A model generated the notes under the pieces. The model was not told the DNA's origin and searched no databases. It saw nothing but the letters and a program-made list of their open reading frames with translations. A DNA stretch of 64,000 bases from Parasphingopyxis sp. (GTDB taxonomy: Bacteria; Pseudomonadota; Alphaproteobacteria; Sphingomonadales; Sphingomonadaceae): the NCBI RefSeq assembly GCF_028279465.1, contig NZ_JANQNS010000014.1, positions 124,001-188,000 of the forward strand, in the 5' to 3' direction. Shown one piece after another: positions 6,232 through 59,252 of the stretch (positions are counted from its first letter, which is position 1; each line of letters begins with the position of its first letter). A program made the position numbers and the translations under genes.

Positions 6232-6253
6232 CGCCGAATGTGATTAGCCGAAA

Positions 6254-6359
6254 CGTCATTGCCAGGAGGTCCGAACTCGGTTCGGGCCGACGCGGCAATC
6301 CAGAGCTGCAAGCGACATCTTTTGCAGCTCTGGATTGCTTCGCTCCGCTCGCAATGACG
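6254..6359. repeat. 106-bp palindromic intergenic repeat, copy 1
   Basis: The ends CGTCATTGC and GCAATGACG are complementary, and the inner arms CAATCCAGAGCTGCA and TGCAGCTCTGGATTG form a second inverted pair, so the whole unit can fold into a long hairpin. A second copy of exactly the same length lies at 17081-17186. It sits between the convergent ends of aroB and the antiporter gene, a typical place for REP/BIME-type elements, and may serve as a bidirectional terminator or mRNA-end protector. Confidence 0.85.
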
Positions 6360-17057: not shown

Positions 17058-17080
17058 CGAGCGAACAATTTCGAATAAAT

Positions 17081-17186
17081 CGTCATTGCGAGGAGGCCCA
17101 AACTTGTTTCGGGGCGACGAAGCAATCCAGAGCGGCTAGCGACATCGCCTGCAGCTCTGGATTGCTTCGCTGCGCTCGCAATGACG
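17081..17186. repeat. 106-bp palindromic intergenic repeat, copy 2
   Basis: It is bounded by CGTCATTGCG and CGCAATGACG, with inner arms around GCAATCCAGAGC and GCTCTGGATTGC. Length and layout match the copy at 6254-6359 exactly, while the central loop sequence differs. It separates the convergent patatin-like and acetyltransferase-like genes, the same kind of location as copy 1. Confidence 0.87.
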
Positions 17187-34474: not shown

Positions 34475-34741
34475 AGGGTCAGAACCTATTAGTGGCACCG
34501 GAACGGCGTCCAAATGGCGAACATATCGGGCCGAAAGACGCGCTGCAGGGGCTGGTTGCCCCTGCAAGCGTTTTTCGGTTCGAGATGGAAGCCATTTGGG
34601 CGTCCCTTTCGGGATTTGACCGAAATGGCCCATTGCTGCGTCGGAGAGGCTTGAAATATTGACATATTCCTGCGCCTCTCCTCCTTGCACTGAGCCATTT
34701 CACTTCAAACCGTGCCGGTGCCACTAATAGGTTCTGACCCT
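34475..34741 (-). repeat. 267-bp inverted-terminal repeat element, copy A
   Basis: Its 27-bp terminal inverted repeats are perfect (AGGGTCAGAACCTATTAGTG plus GCACCGG). The core, read on the minus strand, aligns with the copies at 49636 and 58987: GAAATGGCTCAGTGCAAGG, ATATTTCAAGCCT, GCAGCAATGGGCCA, TCGGTCAAATCCCGAA, ATGGCTTCCATCTCGAAC and CCCGATATGTTCGCCAT are shared. The termini differ greatly from the other copies. It lies between the divergent ydbH and radC genes, three bases from the ydbH ATG. Confidence 0.88.
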
Positions 34742-47570: not shown

Positions 47571-48062
47571 ATGAAGGTGTCGCGTATGGGCGTGCATGCG
47601 ATGGCAGCCGCCGCTTTGCTTCTGTCCGCAGGCGCATTTGCGCAGAGACCCCCACCGCCGCCGCTGCCCGACATGCCCGCCACGCCGCAATATCCATCGA
47701 CGCCTTATCCCAATTGCCGCAACGATTATCGCAACTATTCGGAAGCCTTTGCGCGCGCCGAGGCGACCAATCGCTGCACGCGCCGGATCGATGCCTATCA
47801 CAACCAGGTGATGGCGCCCTTCGTCCGCACCATGCTGCGCCATCAGGAGCGGATTACCGAACTCTACGAATCGCAAGTGATGAATGATTTCGATTATACG
47901 CAGGAGCAGGCCGACGGCTTTTACGCGCAGATCATGCAGGAGCATGCAGACTCCAACCCGGACGGGCGGCATATGGCGCGCTATCAGGAGATGATCCGGC
48001 GCTATCGCGACGATCGCGCCTTTCTCCGGCGGACTTTCTGCCAGAATGCGGGCACCTGCTGA
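47571..48062 (+). CDS. Secreted DYTQEQADGF-motif protein, paralogue 1
   Basis: The 163-residue product has a signal peptide (1-24, GAFAQ), a short Pro-rich stretch and a helical mature part with four conserved cysteines (Cys49, Cys69, Cys157, Cys163), probably two disulfides. The motifs NDFDYTQEQADGF and EHADSNPDGRHMA recur almost unchanged in the next gene. I do not recognise the family. A GAGGGGGA site precedes the ATG. It follows directly after the IDO-like pseudogene. Confidence 0.72.
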   Translation: MKVSRMGVHAMAAAALLLSAGAFAQRPPPPPLPDMPATPQYPSTPYPNCRNDYRNYSEAFARAEATNRCTRRIDAYHNQVMAPFVRTMLRHQERITELYESQVMNDFDYTQEQADGFYAQIMQEHADSNPDGRHMARYQEMIRRYRDDRAFLRRTFCQNAGTC

Positions 48063-48153: not shown

Positions 48154-49155
48154 ATGAAAACTGGTATCGCAACACGCATAGCGGCGATGATGACGATTAT
48201 GGCCTGCGCGGTCATGCCGTACGGGGCTCAGGCGCAACGGTCCGCTCCGCCGCCATTGCCCGAAATCCCGGCAACGCCGGTGATGAGCGGGGTGACTTAT
48301 CCCGATTGCCGCTACGATTATCGCCGCCATGTCGAGCCCTTCGAGATGGCCGACGAAACAACGCGATGCATTGAACGGCTCGACGCCTATCATGCCGAAG
48401 TGCTGGCCGATTTCCGGGTACGGATGATCGCGCATCAGGAGGCCATTTCCGCGCTCTATGAGGCGCAGGTGATGAACGATTTCGATTATACGCAGGAACA
48501 GGCCGACGGCTTTTTCGCGGCCATCACGCAGGAGCATGCGGATTCCAATCCCGACGGCCGGCACATGGCAACGCACCGGGAACTGGAAGCCCGCTATGCG
48601 GAGGACCGCGCATTCCTGCAGGAACGCTTCTGCCGCTATTCGGGCACCTGCGCCAACTATCAACGCACGGCCGAAACCGCTGAGCGGGACCGCGCGGACG
48701 GCACCGAACAGCGCGCCCGCCGCGAAGAAGCCCGCAATCGCGGGAATGCCTGCGATACGGGCCGTGCGGGCGGCGGCATTCTCGGCGGCATTCTCGGCGG
48801 CGTGATCGGAGAAGCCGCCGGCATCGGTGCGATCGGCGGCTTTATCGCCGGGCAGTTTACCGGTGTGCTCGTCGCCGAAATCGCCTGTCAGCTTCAACCG
48901 GAAGAGCAGGAGCGCATGGCCGAGGCCACCGAAACCGTGACCGAACAGGAAGAAGTCGGCGCCACGGCGGAATGGGTCAGCCCGACGCGCGCCGATGTCT
49001 CGGGATCCTCGACCGTCACGGCGATGACCTCCCAGCCAAATGGCGCGGCCTGCATGGACGTGACCGACGTCATCATCGTCGAAGGCGAGGAAACGCGGAT
49101 CTCGAAGCGCATGTGCCGTGGCCCGGGAGAATCCCGCTACACGCTGGCGGCATGA
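48154..49155 (+). CDS. Secreted DYTQEQADGF-motif protein with glycine zipper, paralogue 2
   Basis: Residues 30-166 of this 333-residue protein repeat the whole previous gene product (cysteines 52, 72, 160, 166). It then has a charged stretch (170-200), a glycine-zipper segment (204-240, GGGILGGILGGVIGEAAG) that may insert in the outer membrane, and a C-terminal domain with Cys300 and Cys321 resembling 17-kDa surface-antigen tails. I chose the ATG at 48154 (GAGGG five bases upstream); 48142 would add four residues. The stop overlaps the next start by 4 bp. Confidence 0.72.
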   Translation: MKTGIATRIAAMMTIMACAVMPYGAQAQRSAPPPLPEIPATPVMSGVTYPDCRYDYRRHVEPFEMADETTRCIERLDAYHAEVLADFRVRMIAHQEAISALYEAQVMNDFDYTQEQADGFFAAITQEHADSNPDGRHMATHRELEARYAEDRAFLQERFCRYSGTCANYQRTAETAERDRADGTEQRARREEARNRGNACDTGRAGGGILGGILGGVIGEAAGIGAIGGFIAGQFTGVLVAEIACQLQPEEQERMAEATETVTEQEEVGATAEWVSPTRADVSGSSTVTAMTSQPNGAACMDVTDVIIVEGEETRISKRMCRGPGESRYTLAA

Positions 49156-49637
49156 CGGTGCGCATCCGCGATTTCCAGCCGGACGACGCCCCCGCATTCG
49201 CCGCTCTCAACCTCGCCTGGATCGACGAGATTTTCGAGGTGGAACCATCCGATCGCGCGCAGCTCGAGGACCCGCAAAGCGCGATCATCGCCAAGGGCGG
49301 GCGTATCGCAATTGCCGAAATCGACGGGCGAGTCTGCGGATGCGGGGCCGTGCTGCCTGCCCATATCCAGCCGGTGCCGGACAAATATTATGTCGAGATC
49401 GTCAAAATGGCAGCCGCGGAGGATATGCGCGGCCGGGGCATCGGACGGGCCGTACTGGATCGGCTTATCGAAGACGCGAGAGAGATGGGCGCGGATGGCA
49501 TCTGGCTCGAAACCAGCAACAAGCTCGCCGCCGCCCAGCACCTGTATCGCACATCGGGATTTCGCGATCTCGATGACGATGCGTTCTGGCCGACGCCCTA
49601 TGGCCGCTGCAACGCGCAACTGGTTCTTGAGCTCTAG
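49152..49637 (+). CDS. GNAT-family N-acetyltransferase
   Basis: The 161-residue protein has the GNAT core with acetyl-CoA loop MRGRGIGRAVLDRLIEDAR (residues about 93-111) and the late LYRTSGFRDL strand. It transfers acetyl from acetyl-CoA to an amine; the substrate is unknown. The ATG overlaps the stop of the glycine-zipper gene. Its TAG stop codon lies in the first bases of a repeat element (copy B). Confidence 0.88.
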   Translation: MTVRIRDFQPDDAPAFAALNLAWIDEIFEVEPSDRAQLEDPQSAIIAKGGRIAIAEIDGRVCGCGAVLPAHIQPVPDKYYVEIVKMAAAEDMRGRGIGRAVLDRLIEDAREMGADGIWLETSNKLAAAQHLYRTSGFRDLDDDAFWPTPYGRCNAQLVLEL

Positions 49638-49901
49638 GGTTCGGATCCATTACCAATATCGCTTCGGTTTGAGGCGATTTGGCTCAGTGCAAGGCGGGGA
49701 GGCGATGGAATATGGGCATATTTCAAGCCTTTCCAACGCAGCAATGGGCCAAATCGGTCAAATCCCGAAGGGACGACAAAATGGCTTCCATCTCGAACGC
49801 AAATACACTTGGCAACAGAATGACTGTTCCCGGCGTGCATTTCCGCCCGATATGTTCGCCATTTTGACGCCGCAGCGACATTGGTAATGGATCCGAACCC
49901 T
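49636..49901 (+). repeat. 266-bp inverted-terminal repeat element, copy B
   Basis: The perfect arms begin AGGGTTCGGATCCATTACCA and extend outward to CTAG on both sides (49634-49903). The core is nearly the same as copy C, with roughly a dozen mismatches in about 220 bp by hand count. It lies between the convergent GNAT and grpE genes, and the TAG stop of each gene uses bases of the element's ends. Confidence 0.92.
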
Positions 49902-50496
49902 AGTCGGGCTTTTTGGCCACGCCGACCAGCGCAGGCCGCAACAGCCGGTCCTTGATCATGTAACCGCGCTGCATCTGCTGCACGATGATGCCGGGCTCGG
50001 CCTCATCGGTCGGGATTTCGACCATCGCCTGATGCCGGTTCGGATCGAGTTCTTCTCCCATCGCGTCGACCGGTTCGATGCCGTGTTTGGCGAATACGGT
50101 AAGCAATTCGCGGCCCGTTGCGTCGAGGCCGGCGACCAGCCCCTTGAACTTCTCGTCATCACGCAGTTCCTGCGGGATCGCTTCTAGTGCGCGTTCGAGA
50201 TTGTCGGCGACGGAGAGAATATCGCGCGAAAAGCCGGTCGCGGCATAGGCGCTCGCATTCTGCTTCTCCTGTTCGAGACGGCGGCGCGTATTCTGCTCCT
50301 CGGCCTTTGCGTAGAGCACTTCCTGTTTCGCCGCGGCGAGTTCTTCTTCCAGTTCTGCAACGCGATCGGCGTCCGAAACCTGCTCGGCCTCGTCGCTCGT
50401 TTCGCCCGCGTCGCGCATGCTCTCGGGCACGCCGGCCAGTTCGGCCTCCGCCTCGTCCGACAGTGTTTCCGTGTTTTCGGTCTTTTCGCCGTCCAT
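49900..50496 (-). CDS. grpE: Nucleotide exchange factor GrpE
   Basis: GrpE releases ADP from DnaK. The 198-residue protein has an acidic N-terminal tail, a long coiled coil (about 45-90) and the C-terminal beta domain with the family motif around VDAMGEELDPNRHQAM and RPALVGVAKKP. A TTG further upstream opens a longer frame, but the ATG at 50496 fits better. It starts 8 bp after hrcA, so regulator and co-chaperone share one operon. Confidence 0.95.
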   Translation of the reverse strand: MDGEKTENTETLSDEAEAELAGVPESMRDAGETSDEAEQVSDADRVAELEEELAAAKQEVLYAKAEEQNTRRRLEQEKQNASAYAATGFSRDILSVADNLERALEAIPQELRDDEKFKGLVAGLDATGRELLTVFAKHGIEPVDAMGEELDPNRHQAMVEIPTDEAEPGIIVQQMQRGYMIKDRLLRPALVGVAKKPD

Positions 50497-50504
50497 TTTT
50501 CTAT

Positions 50505-51548
50505 TCAACTCACCAGTTTCGATAGGGTCTTTGCCGTGAAATCCACCATGGGAACGACTCGCGCATAGTTCAAGCGTGTGGGGCCGATAACACCCACAAC
50601 GCCAACCACCTGCCCTTCCCCGTCATGATAGGGCGCGGCGATAACCGAAGACCCGGACAAAGCGAACAGCTTGTTCTCCGATCCGATGAAAATCTTTGTC
50701 GCGCGCGCGTCCCGCGCATGATCGAGCAACTGCGCGATTTCCTCCTTGCCCTCCAGCTCGCCGAGCAGATTGCGCACGCGATCGAGATCGGCCGCCGCCG
50801 TCTCGTCAAGCAGGTTCGCCTGACCGCGCACGATGAGCACAGGCCGATCCGCGCTATCCTGCGACCAGGTCGCCAGGCCCCGCGCGATCAGATCCTGCGC
50901 CGCCGCATCGAGCGCTGCCTTGCCGCGGCCGATCTCCTCCTGCAATCGCACGCGCGCCTGTTCGAGCGTGAGGCCGGACAGACGCTGGCTCATATAATTG
51001 GCAGCCTCGTTCAGCGTCGATGCCGGCATCGCATGCGGCAGATCGACAATCCGGTTCTCCACCGAACCGTCATTGCCGACGAGCACGGCGAGCGCCTGCC
51101 GCTCGGACAGCGGGACGAAACCGAACTGGTTAAGCACCGGCTCACGCTTCGTCACATGTACGATACCGGCACAGGCCGACAGGCCCGATAGCGCCGCCGT
51201 CGTATTGGCCACCGCCTCTTCGACCGGCCCGTCGCCATCGATCTCGGCCGCAATCGCCTGCTGCTCCGCAACGGTCAGCCGGCCGGCCTGCATCATCCCG
51301 TCGACGAACAGCCTGAGCCCGGTCTCCGTCGGCATGCGCCCGGCGCTCGTATGCGGCGCGGCGAGCAGGTCGAGTTCTTCGAGGTCCTGCATGACATTGC
51401 GGATCGATGCCGGCGAAAGGTTCAGGCCCGACATTTTCGAGATCGTCCGCGAACCCACCGGCGCGCCGTTTTCGAGATAGCTCTCGACGACGGTGCGGAA
51501 CACGTCACGCGCGCGTTCGGACAGTTCGTTAACGGTCGGATTCGCCAT
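50505..51548 (-). CDS. hrcA: Heat-inducible transcription repressor HrcA
   Basis: HrcA binds CIRCE operators in front of groESL and related operons and needs GroEL for activity. The 347-residue protein has an N-terminal winged helix (VGSRTISKMSGLNLSPASIRNVMQDLEELDLL) followed by a GAF-like dimerisation domain. No CIRCE element is visible upstream of hrcA or of dnaK in this window, so those promoters may not be HrcA targets. A TATAAG sequence near 51620 is a possible -10. Confidence 0.96.
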   Translation of the reverse strand: MANPTVNELSERARDVFRTVVESYLENGAPVGSRTISKMSGLNLSPASIRNVMQDLEELDLLAAPHTSAGRMPTETGLRLFVDGMMQAGRLTVAEQQAIAAEIDGDGPVEEAVANTTAALSGLSACAGIVHVTKREPVLNQFGFVPLSERQALAVLVGNDGSVENRIVDLPHAMPASTLNEAANYMSQRLSGLTLEQARVRLQEEIGRGKAALDAAAQDLIARGLATWSQDSADRPVLIVRGQANLLDETAAADLDRVRNLLGELEGKEEIAQLLDHARDARATKIFIGSENKLFALSGSSVIAAPYHDGEGQVVGVVGVIGPTRLNYARVVPMVDFTAKTLSKLVS

Positions 51549-51694
51549 GCCGGGGATGTAGAAACTCCGGCGCGCCTTCGCCAGCCCCGCCCGCGGATGC
51601 CGTTCGTCGTGTCTTATATGCAGTTGGTCGACAGCAAGGTCACGACACTTGCCGTAAATACCGGGCAGCGGTACAAGATCGCGCGAAAAGACCG

Positions 51695-52111
51695 ATGCCC
51701 GAGAGCAAGACGCCCCTCCCCCCGCCTTCCGAGGCCGAAGCGGAGATTCTCCAGATTGTCTGGGAGCGTCAGCCTGTATCGGTGCGCACCGTGCACGAAC
51801 AGATCAAGCTGGTTCGCGATGTTGGCTACACGACCGTGCTCAAACAATTGCAGCGCATGCTCGACAAGGGGCTTGTCGATCGCATTCCGGGCAAGGGCAA
51901 ATCCTTCGATTATGTGGCGACGCAGCCGGCATCGGAAACGCGCACGACGCTGCTGAATCGGCTGGTGCGGACGGTTTTCGGTAATTCGAAGACCAGCCTC
52001 GTCATGCATGCGCTGGGCCGCGAAGACGTGTCCGCGGACGAAATAGAACAACTCAAGGCTTTCATCGCCGAACTGGAAGCCGAGCAGGGGAGAAATGAGG
52101 ATGCCGATTGA
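51695..52111 (+). CDS. BlaI/MecI/CopY-family transcriptional regulator
   Basis: The 138-residue protein has the winged-helix DNA-binding domain (EAEILQIVWERQPVSVRTVHEQI then YTTVLKQLQRMLDKGLV) and a C-terminal dimerisation helix. BlaI-type repressors are cleaved when a coupled M56 membrane protease is triggered. It overlaps the downstream M56 gene by 17 bp. No TACA-N-TGTA-type operator is evident upstream, so its targets cannot be named; self-regulation is expected. Confidence 0.9.
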   Translation: MPESKTPLPPPSEAEAEILQIVWERQPVSVRTVHEQIKLVRDVGYTTVLKQLQRMLDKGLVDRIPGKGKSFDYVATQPASETRTTLLNRLVRTVFGNSKTSLVMHALGREDVSADEIEQLKAFIAELEAEQGRNEDAD

Positions 52112-54038
52112 TCCGGGAGTAATGGTCGACAGCCTTGGCTGGGCCCTCTTGCACAGCATCTGGCAAATCGGCCTCGTCGCCGCCCTGGTCTGGGCCGCGC
52201 TCCGGATTACGCCGCGTCATCAGGCCCAGCTGCGCTTTCTGCTCGCCTATGGCGGGCTTGCCGCGACATTGCTGTTGTTTATCGGCACCTGGATCATCAG
52301 CTATCGGACGATCGGCGCGGTCGAGCCGCTCGCCATGGCCTATGCGCCGCCCGCCCAGGGCTGGGATGCGGTAATCGCGACGCTCGGTCAAACGACAGGC
52401 TTCATCTCGGCATTCTGGGCCCTGGGCTTTAGCTGGCTCGGCATCCGCTACCTGCAGGCCCTGCGCGCGACAAACCGACTGCGCCACGAGGGCACCGGGC
52501 CCGTCCCGGCCGAATGGGAAACGCGTTTCCGCCTTTGGGTCGAACGACTCGGCGCAGACGGCAGGGCCGCGATCCTCCAATCCTCGCGCATCACGACGCC
52601 GCTGACGATCGGAACGCTTAAGCCCGTCGTGCTCGTGCCCGCCGGCTTTTTCCTGCGCATGCCGATCGAACAGGCCGAAGCCGTGCTCGTGCACGAGATC
52701 GCCCATATCTGCCGCCAGGATTATCTGCTCGGCCTGATCCAGGCGCTGATCTGCAACATCTTCTTCTTCCATCCAGCGATCGCCTATCTCTCGCGTCAGA
52801 TCGATATCGAACGCGAATATGCGTGCGACGCCCGTGTCGTCGCCGAAACCGGCAACGCCAACGCGCTGGCGCAGGGCCTTGGCAAGGTTGCGCTGGAAAG
52901 CCACGACATGCTGCCCGGCTTCGCGATGGCGGCCGATGGCAGCAAGACGCCGCTGATGAACCGCATCGCCCGGCTGCGCGAACGGCCTTTCCGCCGCGAG
53001 CATGGCACGACGATGCCCGCCGCATTGACGCTCGTGCTCGCCGGATGCCTGACGGTCGCAGCCACGGCCGACACGACCTTCTCTTCGGGCGAAAAAGACG
53101 GCGAAGACGCCAAAGACCCTGCCGCTGCGGCCGAAGAGCCCATGGCCGCTTCCGAAGGAGAAGCGGTCGCGGAAGTCGAGATCGTCGAAGAAAGCGCGCG
53201 TGAAGTCCATGCGTCGCGACCCGATCGCGCCAGAAGTGATGCCGCTCCGAAGGCTCACGCTCCGTCCGAGGATCGCTGGGCCTCCGCGAATACCGGAAGC
53301 TGGGCCTTCGAAATCGCGCCGAACTGGGCCGACGACTTCCGCGATTTCCGCCCCGAAGCCACCAAGAATCTCGGCGGCGCTTTCCGCCGCGCAGCCGTCG
53401 GCCATGACCGGAATTTCCTCGAAAACGCCGTCATCCGCGCCGCCATCTTCGAAACCGAGACCGAAATCGCCGAAGACGCGCATGACGAGCAGTGCGAAGA
53501 CAAGGCCGAGATGATCGCCGAGCAACGCAGCCGTGAAGCCGCCCGCCGGGCAACGCGCATGGAACGCGCAGAAGCACAGCGCGATCGCGAAATCGCCCGG
53601 ATGGAAGCACAGGCCGAGCGTGAGATTGCGCAGGTCGAGCGGGAAATGGCCCGCGCCGAACGCGAGATAGAGCGCGAGATGACGCGCGTGGAACGCGAAA
53701 TGGCGCGCGTCGAACAGCAGATGGAGCAGAGCGAGCATGTGCGCTCGGCGAGTTTCCAGCGCGAAATGCAGCAGCTTACCGCGCGCATGTCGGTTCTGGG
53801 ATCGGAACTGCAGAGCCGCCTCGAAAGCCATCGCGAACGCATCCAGCAGCGCGTGCAACGCGCACAGCGTGACAGGCAGCGCTATCGCTCCGTCACACCG
53901 CCGGCGCCTCCCGCTCCGCCCGAGCCCCCGGCACCAACGATCACGATCAGCTTCTATATCCAAGGTTCCGACAACGAGACGCCACGCCCAGCGCCGGTCC
54001 TCCGTCTCGCCGCAGCGACGACCGGCGACCCCGGCTAA
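52095..54038 (+). CDS. BlaR1-like M56 metalloprotease with coiled-coil C-terminus
   Basis: The 647-residue membrane protease has hydrophobic helices near 17-36, 48-68 and 102-118, the zinc motif HEIAHICRQDY (200-210) with the third ligand in EREYACDARV, and a last membrane helix near 309-328. Unlike BlaR1 or MecR1, no penicillin-binding sensor domain follows. The outside part (about 330-640) is charged, and residues about 475-600 form a very regular coiled coil of Arg/Glu-Met repeats (such as VEREMARAEREIEREM), then a Pro-rich end. It probably senses an envelope cue and cleaves the BlaI-like repressor. The signal is not known. Confidence 0.87.
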   Translation: MRMPIDPGVMVDSLGWALLHSIWQIGLVAALVWAALRITPRHQAQLRFLLAYGGLAATLLLFIGTWIISYRTIGAVEPLAMAYAPPAQGWDAVIATLGQTTGFISAFWALGFSWLGIRYLQALRATNRLRHEGTGPVPAEWETRFRLWVERLGADGRAAILQSSRITTPLTIGTLKPVVLVPAGFFLRMPIEQAEAVLVHEIAHICRQDYLLGLIQALICNIFFFHPAIAYLSRQIDIEREYACDARVVAETGNANALAQGLGKVALESHDMLPGFAMAADGSKTPLMNRIARLRERPFRREHGTTMPAALTLVLAGCLTVAATADTTFSSGEKDGEDAKDPAAAAEEPMAASEGEAVAEVEIVEESAREVHASRPDRARSDAAPKAHAPSEDRWASANTGSWAFEIAPNWADDFRDFRPEATKNLGGAFRRAAVGHDRNFLENAVIRAAIFETETEIAEDAHDEQCEDKAEMIAEQRSREAARRATRMERAEAQRDREIARMEAQAEREIAQVEREMARAEREIEREMTRVEREMARVEQQMEQSEHVRSASFQREMQQLTARMSVLGSELQSRLESHRERIQQRVQRAQRDRQRYRSVTPPAPPAPPEPPAPTITISFYIQGSDNETPRPAPVLRLAAATTGDPG

Positions 54039-54129
54039 GCCATAGCAGACAGTTCGCCCGCCCGGTTTCGGCTGGACGCACGCCCGCGCGGGCGATAGGG
54101 GCAGACCCGACACAATCCGCAAAGGACCT

Positions 54130-54849
54130 ATGCCCATGCGCCCTTCCGGCCGCGCGCCCGATCAGATGCGGGCGATCACCATCGAACCCGGTTTCACCAA
54201 ACATGCCGAAGGCTCCTGCCTGATCAGCTTCGGCGAAACCCGCGTGCTCTGCACGGCCAGCGTCGAGGACCGCGTCCCGCCCTGGATGCGCGGCAAGGGC
54301 AGCGGCTGGGTGACCGGCGAATATGGCATGCTGCCCCGCTCCACCCATACGCGTGGCAATCGCGAGGCGGCGCGGGGCAAGCAATCGGGCCGGACCCAGG
54401 AAATCCAGCGCCTGATCGGCCGCTCGCTGCGCGCCGTGACGGACCTCACGCTGCTCGGCGAGCGCCAGATTACTGTCGATTGCGACGTGATCCAGGCCGA
54501 TGGCGGCACGCGCACGGCATCGATCTCGGGCGGCTGGGTCGCATTGCGGCTCGCGATCAACGTGCTGATCGCCGAGGGCAAGATCGAGCAGGACCCGATG
54601 AGCCAGAAGATCGCCGCGATATCCTGCGGCATCTATAAGGGCGAACCAGTCCTCGATCTCGATTATGCCGAGGACAGCAATGCGGGCGCCGACGCCAATT
54701 TCGTGCTGACCGGCGACGGCAACATCGCCGAGGCGCAATGCACGGCCGAGGGCGAAACCTATGATGAGGAAGCGCTTCTCCGTCTCCTCCGCCTGGCGCG
54801 GATCGGCTGCGACGAGATTTTCGCGGCGCAGGATGCCGCCATCTCGTGA
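54130..54849 (+). CDS. rph: Ribonuclease PH
   Basis: RNase PH trims tRNA 3' ends by phosphorolysis. The 239-residue protein has the typical start [11 protein letters not shown], the [13 protein letters not shown] phosphate-binding segment and the C-terminal domain with [20 protein letters not shown]. An AAGGA site precedes the ATG at 54130; the ATG at 54136 is also possible. It overlaps rdgB by 4 bp (GTGA), the start of an rph-rdgB-hemW operon. Confidence 0.97.
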
Positions 54850-55469
54850 GCCGCACGCTCGAACCCGGCAAGTTGCTGATCGCCAGCCACAATGCGGGTA
54901 AGGTACGCGAAATCGGGGAACTGGTGCGGCCGCACGGCATGGAGGTCGTCAGCGCCGCCGAACTCGATCTGCCCGAGCCCGAAGAGACCGGCACGACCTT
55001 CGCCGAGAATGCGCTGATCAAGGCGCATGCCGGTGCGGAGGGTTGCGGCATCGTTGCGCTGGCCGATGACAGCGGGCTGTGCGTGGAGGCGCTTGGCGGT
55101 GCCCCCGGCGTCTATACGGCGGACTGGGCCGAGGCCGACACGTTCGAAGGCGGTCCGGGGCGCGACTGGTATATGGCGATGGGCAAGGTCGAGGGGAAAC
55201 TCTCCGAACTCGGGCCCGACACCGATCGCAGCGCCTATTTCGCCTGCACGCTGGCGCTCGCATGGCCGGACGGCCACAGCGAAATCTTCGAAGGACGCGC
55301 ACCGGGCAGCCTCACTTGGCCACCGCGCGGCATTCTCGGTTTCGGCTACGATCCGGTGTTCGTGCCAGAGGGCCGCAATCAAACCTTCGCGGAAATCGAC
55401 CCTGCCGAAAAGCATGCAATCAGCCACCGCGCCGACGCCTTCGCCAAGATGATGAAAGCGGTGTTCTGA
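54846..55469 (+). CDS. rdgB: XTP/dITP diphosphatase (RdgB/HAM1)
   Basis: RdgB hydrolyses deaminated purine nucleotides such as dITP and XTP, preventing mutagenic incorporation. The 207-residue protein shows [38 protein letters not shown], the GFGYDPVF segment and the closing ISHRADAF motif. The GTG start overlaps the rph stop by 4 bp, so translation is coupled. Confidence 0.97.
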
Positions 55470-55474
55470 GCGCA

Positions 55475-56608
55475 ATGACCGGTCTGGCCCTCTATATCCA
55501 TTGGCCGTTCTGCGTTTCCAAATGCCCTTACTGCGACTTTAACAGCCATGTCCGGGAAAGCGTCGATCAGGATGCATGGCGCACGGCGTTGCTCGCAGAA
55601 ATGGCGTACGAGGCCGCGCTGACGGACGGCACAGAGCTAACATCGATCTTCTTCGGCGGCGGAACGCCTTCGCTGATGCCGCCCGAAACGGTCGCCGCGC
55701 TGATCGAGGCGGCCGAAACGCATTGGGGCTTCGCGCCCGATATCGAAATCACGCTCGAAGCCAACCCCTCGTCGGTCGAAGCCGCGCGTTTCGCCGATCT
55801 GGCGCGTGCCGGCGTCAACCGCGTTTCGCTCGGCCTGCAATCGCTCGACGACACGGCTCTGCGCTTTCTGGGTCGCGCGCACACGGTCGACGAGGGCCTA
55901 GCCGCGCTCGATACTGCGCAGTCGGTGTTCGCGCGGACGAGCTTCGATCTGATCTATGCGCTACCCGACCAGAGTGTCGCAGACTGGCAGTTCGAACTGG
56001 AGCGCGCCCTGGCTTTCGGAACCGAGCATCTCTCGCTCTATCAGCTCACCATCGAACCGGGCACGCGCTTCGCGACGTTAGCGGCCCAGGGCGCGCTGGG
56101 CGAAGCGGAACCCGACCACGGGGCAGCGCTGTACGAACGCACCCAAGACCTCACCGAGGCGGCGGGCATGCCGGCTTATGAGATTTCGAATCATGCCCGA
56201 CCGGGCGCGGAAAGCCGGCACAATCTGACCTATTGGTGCTACGAACCCTATGCGGGGATCGGACCGGGTGCGCATGGCCGACGCGGCGGTATGGCGACGA
56301 CCCGCCATAAGAAGCCCGAGAACTGGCTGTCCGCCGTCGATCGCAACGACCATGGGCTGCAGACCGAAACGGTCCTGCCTGACCATGAGCAGACGACCGA
56401 AATGCTGATGATGGGCCTGCGGCTTTCCGAAGGCGTTTCGCGCGACCGGATTCCCGCCAACAGACTCGATAGTGACGCAATCGCGCGCCTGACGGATCAC
56501 GGATTGCTCGAACCCCGGACCGACCGCATTGTCGCTACGCCGACCGGACGGCTGGTTCTCAACAGCCTTCTCGCCGAGATCGTCGCCGACGAGCCCGTCG
56601 CGGCCTAG
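55475..56608 (+). CDS. hemW: Radical SAM haem chaperone HemW
   Basis: The 377-residue radical SAM protein has the cluster motif CVSKCPYC with Cys13, Cys17 and Cys20, the GGGTPS motif and the C-terminal HemN-like domain. HemW lacks coproporphyrinogen oxidase activity and carries haem to respiratory enzymes. It starts 5 bp after rdgB. Its TAG stop overlaps the stop of the convergent gene within a shared CTAG at 56605-56608. Confidence 0.95.
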   Translation: MTGLALYIHWPFCVSKCPYCDFNSHVRESVDQDAWRTALLAEMAYEAALTDGTELTSIFFGGGTPSLMPPETVAALIEAAETHWGFAPDIEITLEANPSSVEAARFADLARAGVNRVSLGLQSLDDTALRFLGRAHTVDEGLAALDTAQSVFARTSFDLIYALPDQSVADWQFELERALAFGTEHLSLYQLTIEPGTRFATLAAQGALGEAEPDHGAALYERTQDLTEAAGMPAYEISNHARPGAESRHNLTYWCYEPYAGIGPGAHGRRGGMATTRHKKPENWLSAVDRNDHGLQTETVLPDHEQTTEMLMMGLRLSEGVSRDRIPANRLDSDAIARLTDHGLLEPRTDRIVATPTGRLVLNSLLAEIVADEPVAA

Positions 56609-57789
56609 CCGCCAAAACCGCTCGGGGCCGGTGATACGACCGTAAAGCCGTTCGGCCGGATCTGCTGCACTTCCAGCGCGCGTTCAGCCACGCCATCGCT
56701 ACCGAAGCGGAACGCGCCATCGACACCGGAGAACCCGCCCGCATCGCGCAATTCGCCGAGCGGGAATGGCCGCTCAATCGACCATTCGCGCGCGATCCGG
56801 ACCACCAGCAGCGCCGCATCATAGCCGAGGCTCGACAGGCGATAGGGATCGGAATTGAAGCGCGAGCGGTACCGGTTGCTCAGCGTGTTGAACATCCGGT
56901 CGGACACGCTCGCGAATAGCGCGCCATGCATGGCGGGATCGCGCGCGAGGTCCGGCTGATTGTTCCACAATTCGGTGCCGAGGATTTGCGTGTCCGTCGC
57001 CCCGCGATCGCGTAGCATCTGCGCCGCTTCGCGCGCCGTCGATCCGCTATCGGCGATCAACACGGCATCGAACGGGCCCTCCCCGTTGAGCTGGGTCACG
57101 GCAAGCTGCAGTGAACGGCGCGACCGCTCATAGGTACGCGTGCCGATCATAGTACCACCGGCATCGCGGACCGCCCGTGCAAAGGCGGCCGATGCCCGCT
57201 GGCCATACAGACCTTCGGGAATGAGTGCGGCAAAGCGGCGTGCGCCCCGGCCCGCGGCATAACTGGTCACCCGCGCGATCGACTGGGTCGGCGTGAACCC
57301 CATTAGATAGGTCCCATTGCCCGCAACGCTCGTATCGTTGGAAAATGCGATGATGGGCACGCTCGCGCTGCGCGCCACCGGCGCGGTCGTGCGGACATTG
57401 TCGGCGAGCAGCGGGCCGAGGATCAGGCGGCTGCCATCGGCAAGCGCCTGGTTCGCCGCGGCTCGCGCGCCGCCGGCCCCTGCCGTGTTATATGTGGTGA
57501 TGCGAACGCCTTCCCCGCCCGTATCGAGGATCGCCATGTTCGCGGCATTGGCGATCGACTGGCCGACGCCCGCATTGTTGCCCGATGTCGGCACGAGCAG
57601 CGCCACGCGGCGCAATCCGTCTTCGGGAATGCCCGTGGTGATTTCCGGCTGGGTCGGCGGAGGCGTTTCGTCCGGACGGCTGCCGCCGGGCAGGATCGCC
57701 TCGCAACCTGCGAGCGCGACTGCCATGAAGACGATGCAGAAGCGAGAAAGATACGACTGCCGTTGCCCCGGGTGCCGCTGTGATGCCAT
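56605..57789 (-). CDS. LpoA-like penicillin-binding protein activator lipoprotein
   Basis: The 394-residue lipoprotein (signal segment with lipobox ALAGC, Cys29) matches the periplasmic-binding-protein-like C-terminal domain of LpoA, which in E. coli activates the peptidoglycan synthase PBP1A. The fold region starts VALLVPTSGNNAGVG and contains LILGPLLADNVR and PIIAFSNDT. The N-terminal TPR domain of LpoA is missing. An AGGA site supports the ATG at 57789. rsmI diverges with only 12 bp between the start codons, the same neighbour as in enterobacteria. Confidence 0.86.
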   Translation of the reverse strand: MASQRHPGQRQSYLSRFCIVFMAVALAGCEAILPGGSRPDETPPPTQPEITTGIPEDGLRRVALLVPTSGNNAGVGQSIANAANMAILDTGGEGVRITTYNTAGAGGARAAANQALADGSRLILGPLLADNVRTTAPVARSASVPIIAFSNDTSVAGNGTYLMGFTPTQSIARVTSYAAGRGARRFAALIPEGLYGQRASAAFARAVRDAGGTMIGTRTYERSRRSLQLAVTQLNGEGPFDAVLIADSGSTAREAAQMLRDRGATDTQILGTELWNNQPDLARDPAMHGALFASVSDRMFNTLSNRYRSRFNSDPYRLSSLGYDAALLVVRIAREWSIERPFPLGELRDAGGFSGVDGAFRFGSDGVAERALEVQQIRPNGFTVVSPAPSGFGG

Positions 57790-57801
57790 GACGAGAATCC
57801 T

Positions 57802-58641
57802 ATGAACGATACGCTACCGCCTGGTCTTTACATCGTCGCCACCCCAATCGGCAACTTGCAAGATGTGTCCAAACGGCAGGAAATAACTTTGCGGGAAGCC
57901 GACATTATTGCGGCTGAAGATAGCCGGGTTACGGCCAAGCTGCTCAACCATCTGGGCATCAAGAAACGCATCACAGCTTATCATGATCATGTCGACGAGT
58001 CCGTCCGCGCCGGGCTCGTCGAAAAGCTTGGCGACAAGGCCATCGCGCTCGTCTCCGATGCGGGCACGCCGCTGATATCGGATCCCGGCTACAAGCTGGT
58101 GCGCGATGCGCGCGCGGCCGGTTATCTGGTGACGACAGTGCCCGGGCCCTGCGCTGCCATTGCCGCGCTGACTTTGGCCGGACTGCCGACCGATCGCTTC
58201 GTCTTCGCGGGATTTCTGCCGGCCAAGGCCAAGGCGCGGACCGACGCGATCCGCGAACTGGCTGCCATCCGCGCCACGCTGATCTTCTACGATTCCGGAC
58301 CGCGGCTCGCCAAATCGCTGCAGGCCCTTTCGGCAGAACTGGGCGACCGCGAGGCGGCGGTTGCGCGCGAGATCAGCAAGGCCTTCGAAGAGTGCGTGAC
58401 CGGGACATTGGACGAACTGGCGGCGCGCTATGCCGATGCGCCGCCCAAGGGCGAGATCGTGATCGTCGTCGGGCCGCCCGGTGAAGCCGATGCGGCGAGC
58501 GAGGCGGACATAGATGCTGCCCTGGCCGAAGCGCTTGAGCGATTGCCGCCCGGTAAAGCAGCGCGTGAAGTCGCCAAGGCGCTCCATTTGCCAAGCGAGG
58601 GGCTCTACGAACGCGCCATGGCCCTCAAGACCGGCGGATGA
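57802..58641 (+). CDS. rsmI: 16S rRNA (cytidine1402-2'-O)-methyltransferase
   Basis: RsmI methylates C1402 of 16S rRNA in the decoding centre. The 279-residue SPOUT-independent tetrapyrrole-methylase-type protein has PPGLYIVATPIGNLQD, AEDSRVTAKLLNHLGI, SDAGTPLISDPGYKLV and a GPCAAIAALTLAGLPTDRF motif. GAGA lies six bases before the ATG. It overlaps yraN by 4 bp (ATGA), and both diverge from the LpoA-like gene. Confidence 0.97.
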   Translation: MNDTLPPGLYIVATPIGNLQDVSKRQEITLREADIIAAEDSRVTAKLLNHLGIKKRITAYHDHVDESVRAGLVEKLGDKAIALVSDAGTPLISDPGYKLVRDARAAGYLVTTVPGPCAAIAALTLAGLPTDRFVFAGFLPAKAKARTDAIRELAAIRATLIFYDSGPRLAKSLQALSAELGDREAAVAREISKAFEECVTGTLDELAARYADAPPKGEIVIVVGPPGEADAASEADIDAALAEALERLPPGKAAREVAKALHLPSEGLYERAMALKTGG

Positions 58642-58988
58642 AGCGCCAGAAAGCCGAAAAAAGCGGTCGGCGCGGGGAAACGCGCGCGGCCTGGTTTCTG
58701 CGCCGCAAGGGCTATCGCATCCTCGCCCGGCGCGAACGGACCCCGCGCGGTGAGATCGATATCGTCGCGCGCCGCCGCAATCTCATCGTGTTCGTCGAGG
58801 TCAAAACGCGCGCAACGCCAGCCGAACTTGATTTCGCGATCGACGAGTATCGACTGGAGCGAGTCGCGGCGGCGGCGGAAATACTGGCGCCGAAATTTGC
58901 GCCCAATGGCGAGGATATCCGGATCGACGTGATCCTGATCGCCCCGCGCCACAAGCCGCGCCATATCGAGAATGCTTGGATGGGTTAG
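58638..58988 (+). CDS. yraN: YraN family protein (UPF0102, endonuclease-like)
   Basis: The 116-residue basic protein has the RecB-like nuclease fold of UPF0102: GEIDIVARRRNLIVFVEVKTR holds the Asp and Glu-x-Lys active-site pattern. Its role is not established; Holliday junction or RNA cleavage has been suggested. It overlaps rsmI by 4 bp. Its TAG stop codon is partly made from the first bases of repeat copy C. Confidence 0.93.
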   Translation: MKRQKAEKSGRRGETRAAWFLRRKGYRILARRERTPRGEIDIVARRRNLIVFVEVKTRATPAELDFAIDEYRLERVAAAAEILAPKFAPNGEDIRIDVILIAPRHKPRHIENAWMG

Positions 58989-59252
58989 GGTTCGGACCCC
59001 GTACCAATTCCACTGCGGTTTGAGGCGATTTGGCTCAGTGCAAGGCGGGGAAGCGATGGAATATCGGCATATTTCAAGCCTTCCCAACGCAGCAATGGGT
59101 CAAATCGGTCAAATCCCGAAGGGACGACAAAATGGCTTCCATCTCGAACGGAAATCCACTTGGAAACAGAACCACTGTTCCCGGCGTGCATTTCCGCCCG
59201 ATATGTTCGCCATTTTGACGCCGCAGCGGTATTGGTACGGGGTCCGAACCCT
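58987..59252 (+). repeat. 266-bp inverted-terminal repeat element, copy C
   Basis: The perfect arms begin AGGGTTCGGACCCCGTACCA. Compared with copy B the arm carries three substitutions, and the opposite arm carries the three matching changes. The pairing extends two bases outward (TT/AA). The core is shared with copies A and B. It fills most of the 332-bp gap between yraN and gshB, and nothing else is evident there besides the gshB promoter region. Confidence 0.92.

Follow-up and report, generated by a model that had tools for sequence, protein, structure and literature searches.

A short alphaproteobacterial foldback repeat with transposon-type ends and core hairpins paired on opposite strands

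We use comparative sequence analysis to study a repeat of 266 bp, present as copies A, B and C in a 64,000-nucleotide stretch of Parasphingopyxis sp. (the window, C20:124001-188000 of a 3.31 Mb genome in 21 contigs). We read this repeat as a superfamily of miniature inverted-repeat transposable elements (MITEs) with a conserved, apparently host-selected hairpin module. In our preferred reading, to which we assign a probability of roughly 0.6, the element is a non-autonomous MITE moved by IS5-family transposases, its host-selected hairpins act in cis as RNA, and its terminal arms are kept alike mainly by template switching. A broader version, which we hold only tentatively and at clearly less than even odds, is that a hairpin module spanning both strands has spread across Alphaproteobacteria and other classes while wearing the ends of whichever IS5-like transposon was available, that after landing in a stop codon it would be kept by the host as a portable mRNA-end or protein-binding element, and that its arms record template-switch correction.

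The basic plan emerges from alignments of 107 distinct full copies, later extended to 213 (192 after removal of 21 orthologous duplicates). The consensus is a closed foldback made of arms of ~32 bp, a hairpin (P2), a short CCCGnAGGG hairpin and a further hairpin (P4). In copy B (AGGG...CCCT; 49636..49901, + strand) these parts are the left arm (49636..49667, +), P2 (49675..49756, wobble-tolerant on the + strand), the short central hairpin TCCCGAAGGGA (49763..49773, +), P4 (49774..49869, wobble-tolerant on the - strand) and the right arm (49870..49901, +). Copy C (58987..59252, +), which is 91% identical to B across 279 nt, has P2 at 59026..59107 (+) and P4 at 59125..59220 (-). Copy A (34475..34741) lies on the - strand, so that P2, on the element's own strand, is at 34621..34702 (-) and P4, on the strand opposite to the element, at 34507..34602 (+). 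The coordinates of all three copies and of their arms agree with those of a previous model-made reading of the window (the sequence-only reading). The plan varies at its core: P4 is missing in L029, L056, L100 and L101, P2 is missing in L055, and L107 has a different second hairpin. Since no reading frame runs uninterrupted in more than 50 of the 213 copies, we find no conserved protein, just as the sequence-only reading saw no convincing one.

What drew attention to the repeat is that its arms differ between copies and stay paired. The arms of B (GGATCCATTACCAAT) and C (GGACCCCGTACCAAT) differ at exactly three positions, each with the complement altered in the opposite arm, and the 27-bp perfect arm of copy A belongs to a different sequence class. 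The pairing had been described as perfect; this holds for the 27 bp of A, while over the full arm of 32-34 bp there are two inner-end mismatches in each of B and C and one in A. The sequence-only reading had also made its case depend on further copies not having unpaired arms, and across the 213 copies 6480 of 6810 arm cells are Watson-Crick pairs (95.2%), with no mismatch in 48 copies and one in 64. This pairing is far beyond chance, and it extends over several arm classes: AGGGTCAGGACCCATTAATT (to which the AGGGTCAGAACCTATTAG of copy A is close), AGGCCGTAAACTCATAAA, AGGGCGTGTACTCA, AGGGTTCGGAYCC (B and C) and others.

Two causes had been proposed for the compensated changes, namely selection for a stem or one arm repeatedly correcting the other, and we find that they belong to different parts of the element. 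Wobbles in the arms are symmetric, with G·T 52 versus A·C 61 in the 107 copies and 115 versus 113 in the 213. Because they show no strand bias, correction or maintenance at the level of DNA fits the arms better than an RNA stem does. The arms could instead form a stem (P1) under selection within one large folded RNA of the whole element: RNAalifold does close the whole element with P1, and the arm changes are compensated. An RNA stem should, however, favour G·U, since reading of the + strand prevails 78:17 (see below), and the wobbles lack a strand preference both in the full set and among changes after insertion (14 versus 8), which leaves a selected P1 stem very improbable. The RNA-like selection that the sequence-only reading suspected does exist, but it sits in the core hairpins P2 and P4, which that reading had not picked out, and on opposite strands.

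In the core, wobbles in P2 are mostly G·T on the + strand, and those in P4 are mostly A·C, which is G·U on the other strand. Folding of the 107 copies one at a time gives the same picture: P2 is more stable on the + strand in 107/107 and P4 on the - strand in 104/107. For P2 and the short hairpin in 23 diverse copies, covariation is 0.348 versus 0.145 in shuffled alignments (0 of 500 shuffles reaching the observed value), with double changes in 19 of 39 pairs, so that the covariation check suggested by the sequence-only reading gives a signal above background. The loops are conserved as well. The P4 internal loop reads TTC/TTC on the + strand, hence GAA/GAA on the - strand, and its two sides are kept in 204 and 203 of the 213 copies; P2 has loops of the GA/GA type on the + strand, and both hairpins commonly have a GCA/AA-type loop under the top stem. 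Because of these loops, P2 and P4 look like inverted relatives of each other.

Now we consider whether these patterns persist after insertion. Comparison of flanks yields 25 orthologous pairs in 18 clusters; we use the least identical pair per cluster and drop three clusters with core identity <0.85, leaving 15. In-place changes are here the undirected differences between the members of a pair, some of which could be independent insertions, since insertion into the same intergenic region appears to recur. One-sided changes in P4 comprise 19 A·C, 3 G·T and 11 others (19:3, two-sided p ~0.001), and those in P2 5 G·T, 1 A·C and 4 others. Because these changes stay strand-biased, the hairpins still seem to be under selection in place, P2 on the + strand and P4 on the - strand. 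In the arms, 20 compensated changes are observed where 5.1 coincidences are expected (0 of 5000 simulations reached 20), and one-sided changes to a mismatch comprise 14 G·T, 8 A·C and 9 others. Including the three dropped clusters would bring in a further 22 compensated changes in the arms, 3 A·C and 2 G·T in P4, and 2 G·T in P2.

These data bear directly on the simplest account, a plain MITE whose arms are kept by the transposase and whose core is a passenger foldback passed on by inheritance, with covariation that is functionless template-switch correction. Template switching is reported both to homogenise arms (PMC8604942) and to generate and mend hairpins (PMC8794818), and the arm wobbles are indeed symmetric. 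Correction alone should nevertheless neither bias P2 and P4 towards opposite strands nor conserve their internal loops or the plan outside the class, and we regard this account as quite improbable.

Inversion of the core in place through recombination between the arms was rejected. Copies of opposite orientation do occur at matching regions (L060 and L092 against L097, L104 against L089 and L120), but L060 and L092 differ from L097 in their insertion edges, and L104 is not clearly at the same site as L089 and L120. L060, L092, L097 and L104 look like independent insertions into the same intergenic regions of different species, and they suggest insertion hot spots.

The arms also link the element to known transposons. 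The outer ~20 bp of two arm classes are the ends of IS5-family insertion sequences (ISs), for example AGGGTCAGGACCCATTGAT for one and AGGCCGTAAACTCATAAA for the other. In a plasmid search with the consensus arm we opened five loci. Two of them, from Roseomonas (L141) and Sphingomonas (L142), are IS5-family elements whose end is TAGGGTCAGGACCCATTGAT; L140 and L143 have no IS at the match. The fifth, L139, is on plasmid pMC4 of Sphingopyxis indica; here (L139:1380-2560) two element copies with different arm classes abut at a CTAG, into which a further IS5-family element has inserted. For the second class, the rhizobial loci L315, L317 and L319 carry the end CTAGGCYGCAAACTCATAAACGG beside an IS5-type frame; no such end beside an IS5-type frame was seen in L314 and L316 (second class) or in L318 (third class). 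The frames of L141, L142 and L319 match the Pfam family DUF4096; we take these DUF4096 elements to be the IS427 group of the IS5 family. Since two arm classes, one of them close to that of copy A, have IS5-family outer ends, the difference between A and B/C is probably one of transposon-end class. The alternative that arms are copies of the insertion site is rejected for Sphingomonadales, because the same classes of arm turn up at sites unrelated to one another and two of these classes match IS ends; the rejection does not extend to L031.

A survey from the side of the transposons gives a similar result. Among 30 DUF4096 loci from 33 Sphingopyxis-group genomes, 10 have paired element-like ends (each within 2 mismatches of an element arm across 16 bases), another 5 have an end of this sort at one side and 15 have none; the ten paired-end loci, eight of them distinct, all have TA at both edges. 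Comparing the two ends of an IS, over ten distinct IS elements (L141 being read one base off), gives agreement at 16.4 of the outermost 20 positions and at 3.8 of the 12 that follow; for the two arms of an element, over the 192 elements, the figures are 19.36 and 11.05. Because the IS ends are shorter and imperfect, the transposase needs neither perfect nor 32-bp arms, and something else keeps the element's arms perfect. None of the 35 IS loci scanned contains the element core. Taken as a MITE, the repeat is short and without a transposase gene, has a target-site duplication at B and C, and shares terminal inverted repeats with ISs for two arm classes, not for the B/C class or the GTGTACTCA class. 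It is like the IS5-family elements with DUF4096 in these ~20-bp ends and in TA at its edges, and differs from them in having no transposase, no common interior, and longer, near-perfect arms; thus it is not an IS5-family element proper. For two arm classes, movement in trans by IS5-family transposases is supported by this likeness of ends.

The target site is seen most directly at copy B, which lies between the convergent genes for a GNAT acetyltransferase (49152..49637, +; PF00583) and grpE (49900..50508, -; PF01025), each with its stop codon at an edge of the element. We read eight same-genus loci at each of sites B and C. At site B four loci keep the GNAT neighbour without the element and the other four have different neighbours; in the empty sites G002 (CTAG), G005 and G009 (both TTTAG) the stop codons overlap and contain a single TA, and G007 has two separate stops. 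The filled site reads CTA[GGG...CCC]TAG, so that the TA duplications (49635..49636 and 49901..49902) fall within the TAG stops of the GNAT gene and of grpE. Copy C lies between a UPF0102 gene (58638..58988, +; PF02021), whose stop codon is its left edge, and a glutathione synthetase gene; five empty sites (G002, G004, G005, G007 and G009) read GGGxTAAAGCA with a single TA, and the remaining three loci have diverged. Copy A lies between divergent radC and YdbH-like genes. The neighbouring genes were called with a custom codon-usage gene finder, which assigns them the same strands as Pfam does around A, B and C. Upstream of copy B the window has a 137-nt direct repeat (47841-47977 and 48433-48569; 83% identity, 592 bp apart).

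Across the family, the element is oriented with transcription. We classified the gene context of 171 of the 192 copies as ++ (78), -- (17), convergent (33) or divergent (43), where ++ are the co-directional cases in which P2 is nearest the upstream gene (78 versus 17; binomial p 1.6e-10 if copies are independent). The left-hand + gene ends ≤4 nt from the element edge in 61 of 111 cases, and in 47 of those 61 its end is a TAG built from TA and the element's own G.

Drawing on these observations, we can outline how the element would work. With the outer ~20 bp of the arms as their recognition sequence, IS5-family transposases would move the element in trans; insertion would take place at TA, often within a stop codon, where the first G of the element would restore TAG. 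P2 would be read inward on the + strand and P4 inward on the - strand, each from its own end, so that a transcript entering from either neighbour would first meet a hairpin in its functional orientation. The hairpins would then exert their effect in cis, within transcripts of the neighbouring gene, as a structured 3' untranslated or intercistronic element governing mRNA ends or stability. Selection at the level of the host would preserve them for that effect. The foldback, finally, could let replication copy one arm onto the other by template switching, in addition to selection for usable ends. We favour the role as cis-acting RNA because the functional strand of each hairpin is the strand read by a transcript entering from that side, changes made after insertion still show the bias, and the orientation of the element follows transcription.

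The main rival is that the hairpins act as single-stranded DNA in transposition, with the 5' strand of each end folding for excision, synapsis or replication, and the strand bias would then reflect the life cycle of the transposon and not the host. Here the functional strand of each hairpin is the 5' strand of its own end, the length is nearly constant (25 of 27 relatives measure 262-274 bp, in a set cut at 240-300 bp), and G·T wobbles and purine loops are compatible with DNA too. The strand bias is, however, also seen in changes after insertion, the element is oriented with transcription (78 versus 17), copies without P2 or P4 exist, and the core is found in none of the 35 IS loci; we consider this rival unlikely.

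Several observations weigh against the reading of a transposase-moved, cis-acting RNA element. Regarding movement, the arm of B/C used as a query gave only a short chance match and no IS partner, and no IS carrying the end AGGGCGTGTACTCA, or an end of the GTGTACTCA class, was found in the arm searches. Twenty of the 30 DUF4096 loci lack paired element-like ends, the window's own genome has no match to DUF4096 or DDE_Tnp_1, 6 of the 33 Sphingopyxis-group genomes searched have the element and no DUF4096 match, and one genome of this group (G074) has 26 DUF4096 matches and no element copy; these gaps imply that present-day partners are often missing. Regarding the target site, the filled site C (GGGTTA[GGG...CCC]TAAGCA) has one base fewer than expected from the empty sites, and TA stands at both edges in 100 of 192 copies, at one edge in 47 and at neither in 45, so that 92 copies lack it at one or both. 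It is the missing partner of B/C and the imprecise site C that slightly lower our confidence. Regarding the RNA, 43 of the 171 classified copies lie between divergent genes, and the bias of P4 needs reading of the - strand, yet just 17 copies are -- and 33 convergent. By reading of the sequence, without a scan, we see no U tract after either hairpin, and on that reading an intrinsic terminator was rejected. Regarding correction of the arms, the changes in place comprise 31 one-sided changes to a mismatch versus 20 compensated ones.

Next we turn to how widely the element is distributed. Searching the genome and its relatives, as the sequence-only reading had suggested, yields copies in the genome itself, the genus and the wider group. 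Its prediction of many copies per genome comes to eight full copies and one partial one in this genome, and four of the eight are on the window's contig. A DNA-similarity search matches 6 of 40 genomes (this genome and five of the same genus), and in the Sphingopyxis group the element is matched in 65 of 80 genomes, one of them with 15 matches. An exact core pattern with 19 fixed bases finds at least 115 matching stretches; the matches listed are mostly from Sphingopyxis, Novosphingobium, Sphingomonas, Altererythrobacter and their kin, with a few from other alphaproteobacterial metagenome-assembled genomes, and four (L112, L128, L132 and L133) were discarded as chance matches without the core. 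Six plasmid records match the element. There is no match to the exact pattern in viral contigs and none to the element in phages, and on this absence we reject carriage by phages or viruses.

More distant relatives come from a covariance model built from P2 and the short hairpin, for which E-values are rough and genome counts include the window's own genome. Within the class it matches 12 of 385 genomes at E ≤ 0.001, from which ten other families of the class are represented (one, f120, on the weakest match); within the phylum it matches 31 of 398 at E ≤ 1e-4, and 17 of these 31 belong to other classes. Among 49 distant loci the arms score ≥14 in 35; counting just the 43 loci that leave room at either side of the match, the figure is 34. 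Besides the Sphingopyxis copy L371, 27 of these 35 measure 248-274 bp; L344, L355, L366 and L396 are single-hairpin forms of 166-210 bp, and L347, L352 and L397 (a tandem repeat) measure 301-325 bp. Among the 27, L376 and L377 have equal arm and fold energies and L359 runs into a contig end. Stability is higher on the + strand for the first hairpin in 25 of them and on the - strand for the second in 23; for the ten from outside the class the numbers are 8 and 9. The arms of these relatives are unrelated in sequence and differ from genome to genome. Two loci of one genus outside the class (L385 and L386) have common arms that begin TATACCCAAGTGAC, where most others have GGG-type ends.

One locus of Rhodobacteraceae (L031:3230-4860) has three different long foldbacks within ~1.6 kb, one of them a near-perfect hairpin of ~170 nt, and their long arms may reach into adjoining coding sequence. 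It had been a candidate for an autonomous version with a transposase between half elements; the three foldbacks are separate, and no transposase was noticed there, no family search having been run. Elsewhere in the window, a 109-nt direct repeat (6251-6359 and 17078-17186; 86% identity, 10.8 kb apart) has no tie to the element that we could see.

The sequence-only reading could name no described family, and a comparison with Rfam leaves this unchanged. A scan of the window gives no family at gathering score, copy B matches nothing up to E=5, and the sole match in 30 relative loci scanned whole is a tRNA beside L344, off the element; L351 has two weak matches to microRNA families (E 0.28 and 2.6), far under gathering scores. 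As a kind, the MITE is of course already known. What we have not seen in the openly licensed literature searched, or in Rfam, is the hairpin plan on two strands, ends that change between copies, or such breadth.

Several described repeats come close in one respect or another. RUP of Streptococcus pneumoniae is a non-autonomous repeat of 107 bp with the ends of the resident IS630-Spn1 and a TA target, for which no other signature of structure or function is reported in the review consulted (PMC2229807); it is like the element in its IS-type ends and target and unlike it in length and IS family. ERIC of enterobacteria is a TA-flanked intergenic repeat that folds as RNA and whose orientation matters for mRNA (PMC2229807), and Correia/NEMIS of Neisseria is a TA-flanked MITE of 107/155 bp with stems that RNase III cleaves in the transcript (PMC10969869, PMC2229807). 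By description only, the element is set apart from ERIC by the latter's 7 contiguous arm pairs and from Correia/NEMIS by its sizes, and both may serve as precedents for MITE RNA acting on mRNA, with dependence on orientation in the case of ERIC. CIR of Caulobacter and Brucella is likewise alphaproteobacterial and intergenic, with two stem-loops and a linker, TA termini, ~110 bp, a conserved GANTC and no terminal repeats (PMC2229807); the element has GANTC in only 26 of 192 copies, scattered, and has long terminal repeats, neither of which fits CIR.

Two hairpins in inverted order are also the plan of REPIN/BIME, which are marked by short REP hairpins with a tag and by a RAYT transposase. The element shares the inverted hairpin pair and differs in hairpins of ~80-96 nt, IS5-type ends and TA edges.

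The same short element thus separates two causes of compensated change that are usually confounded, symmetric pairing of arms and strand-specific pairing of hairpins. Its many independent insertions, with empty sites and orthologues, offer a test bed for template-switch repair of bacterial inverted repeats. And the hairpin module, which the covariance model finds in 17 sampled genomes beyond the class and in ten further families within it, has no match in Rfam, which suggests a cis-acting RNA that is undescribed in the sources searched.

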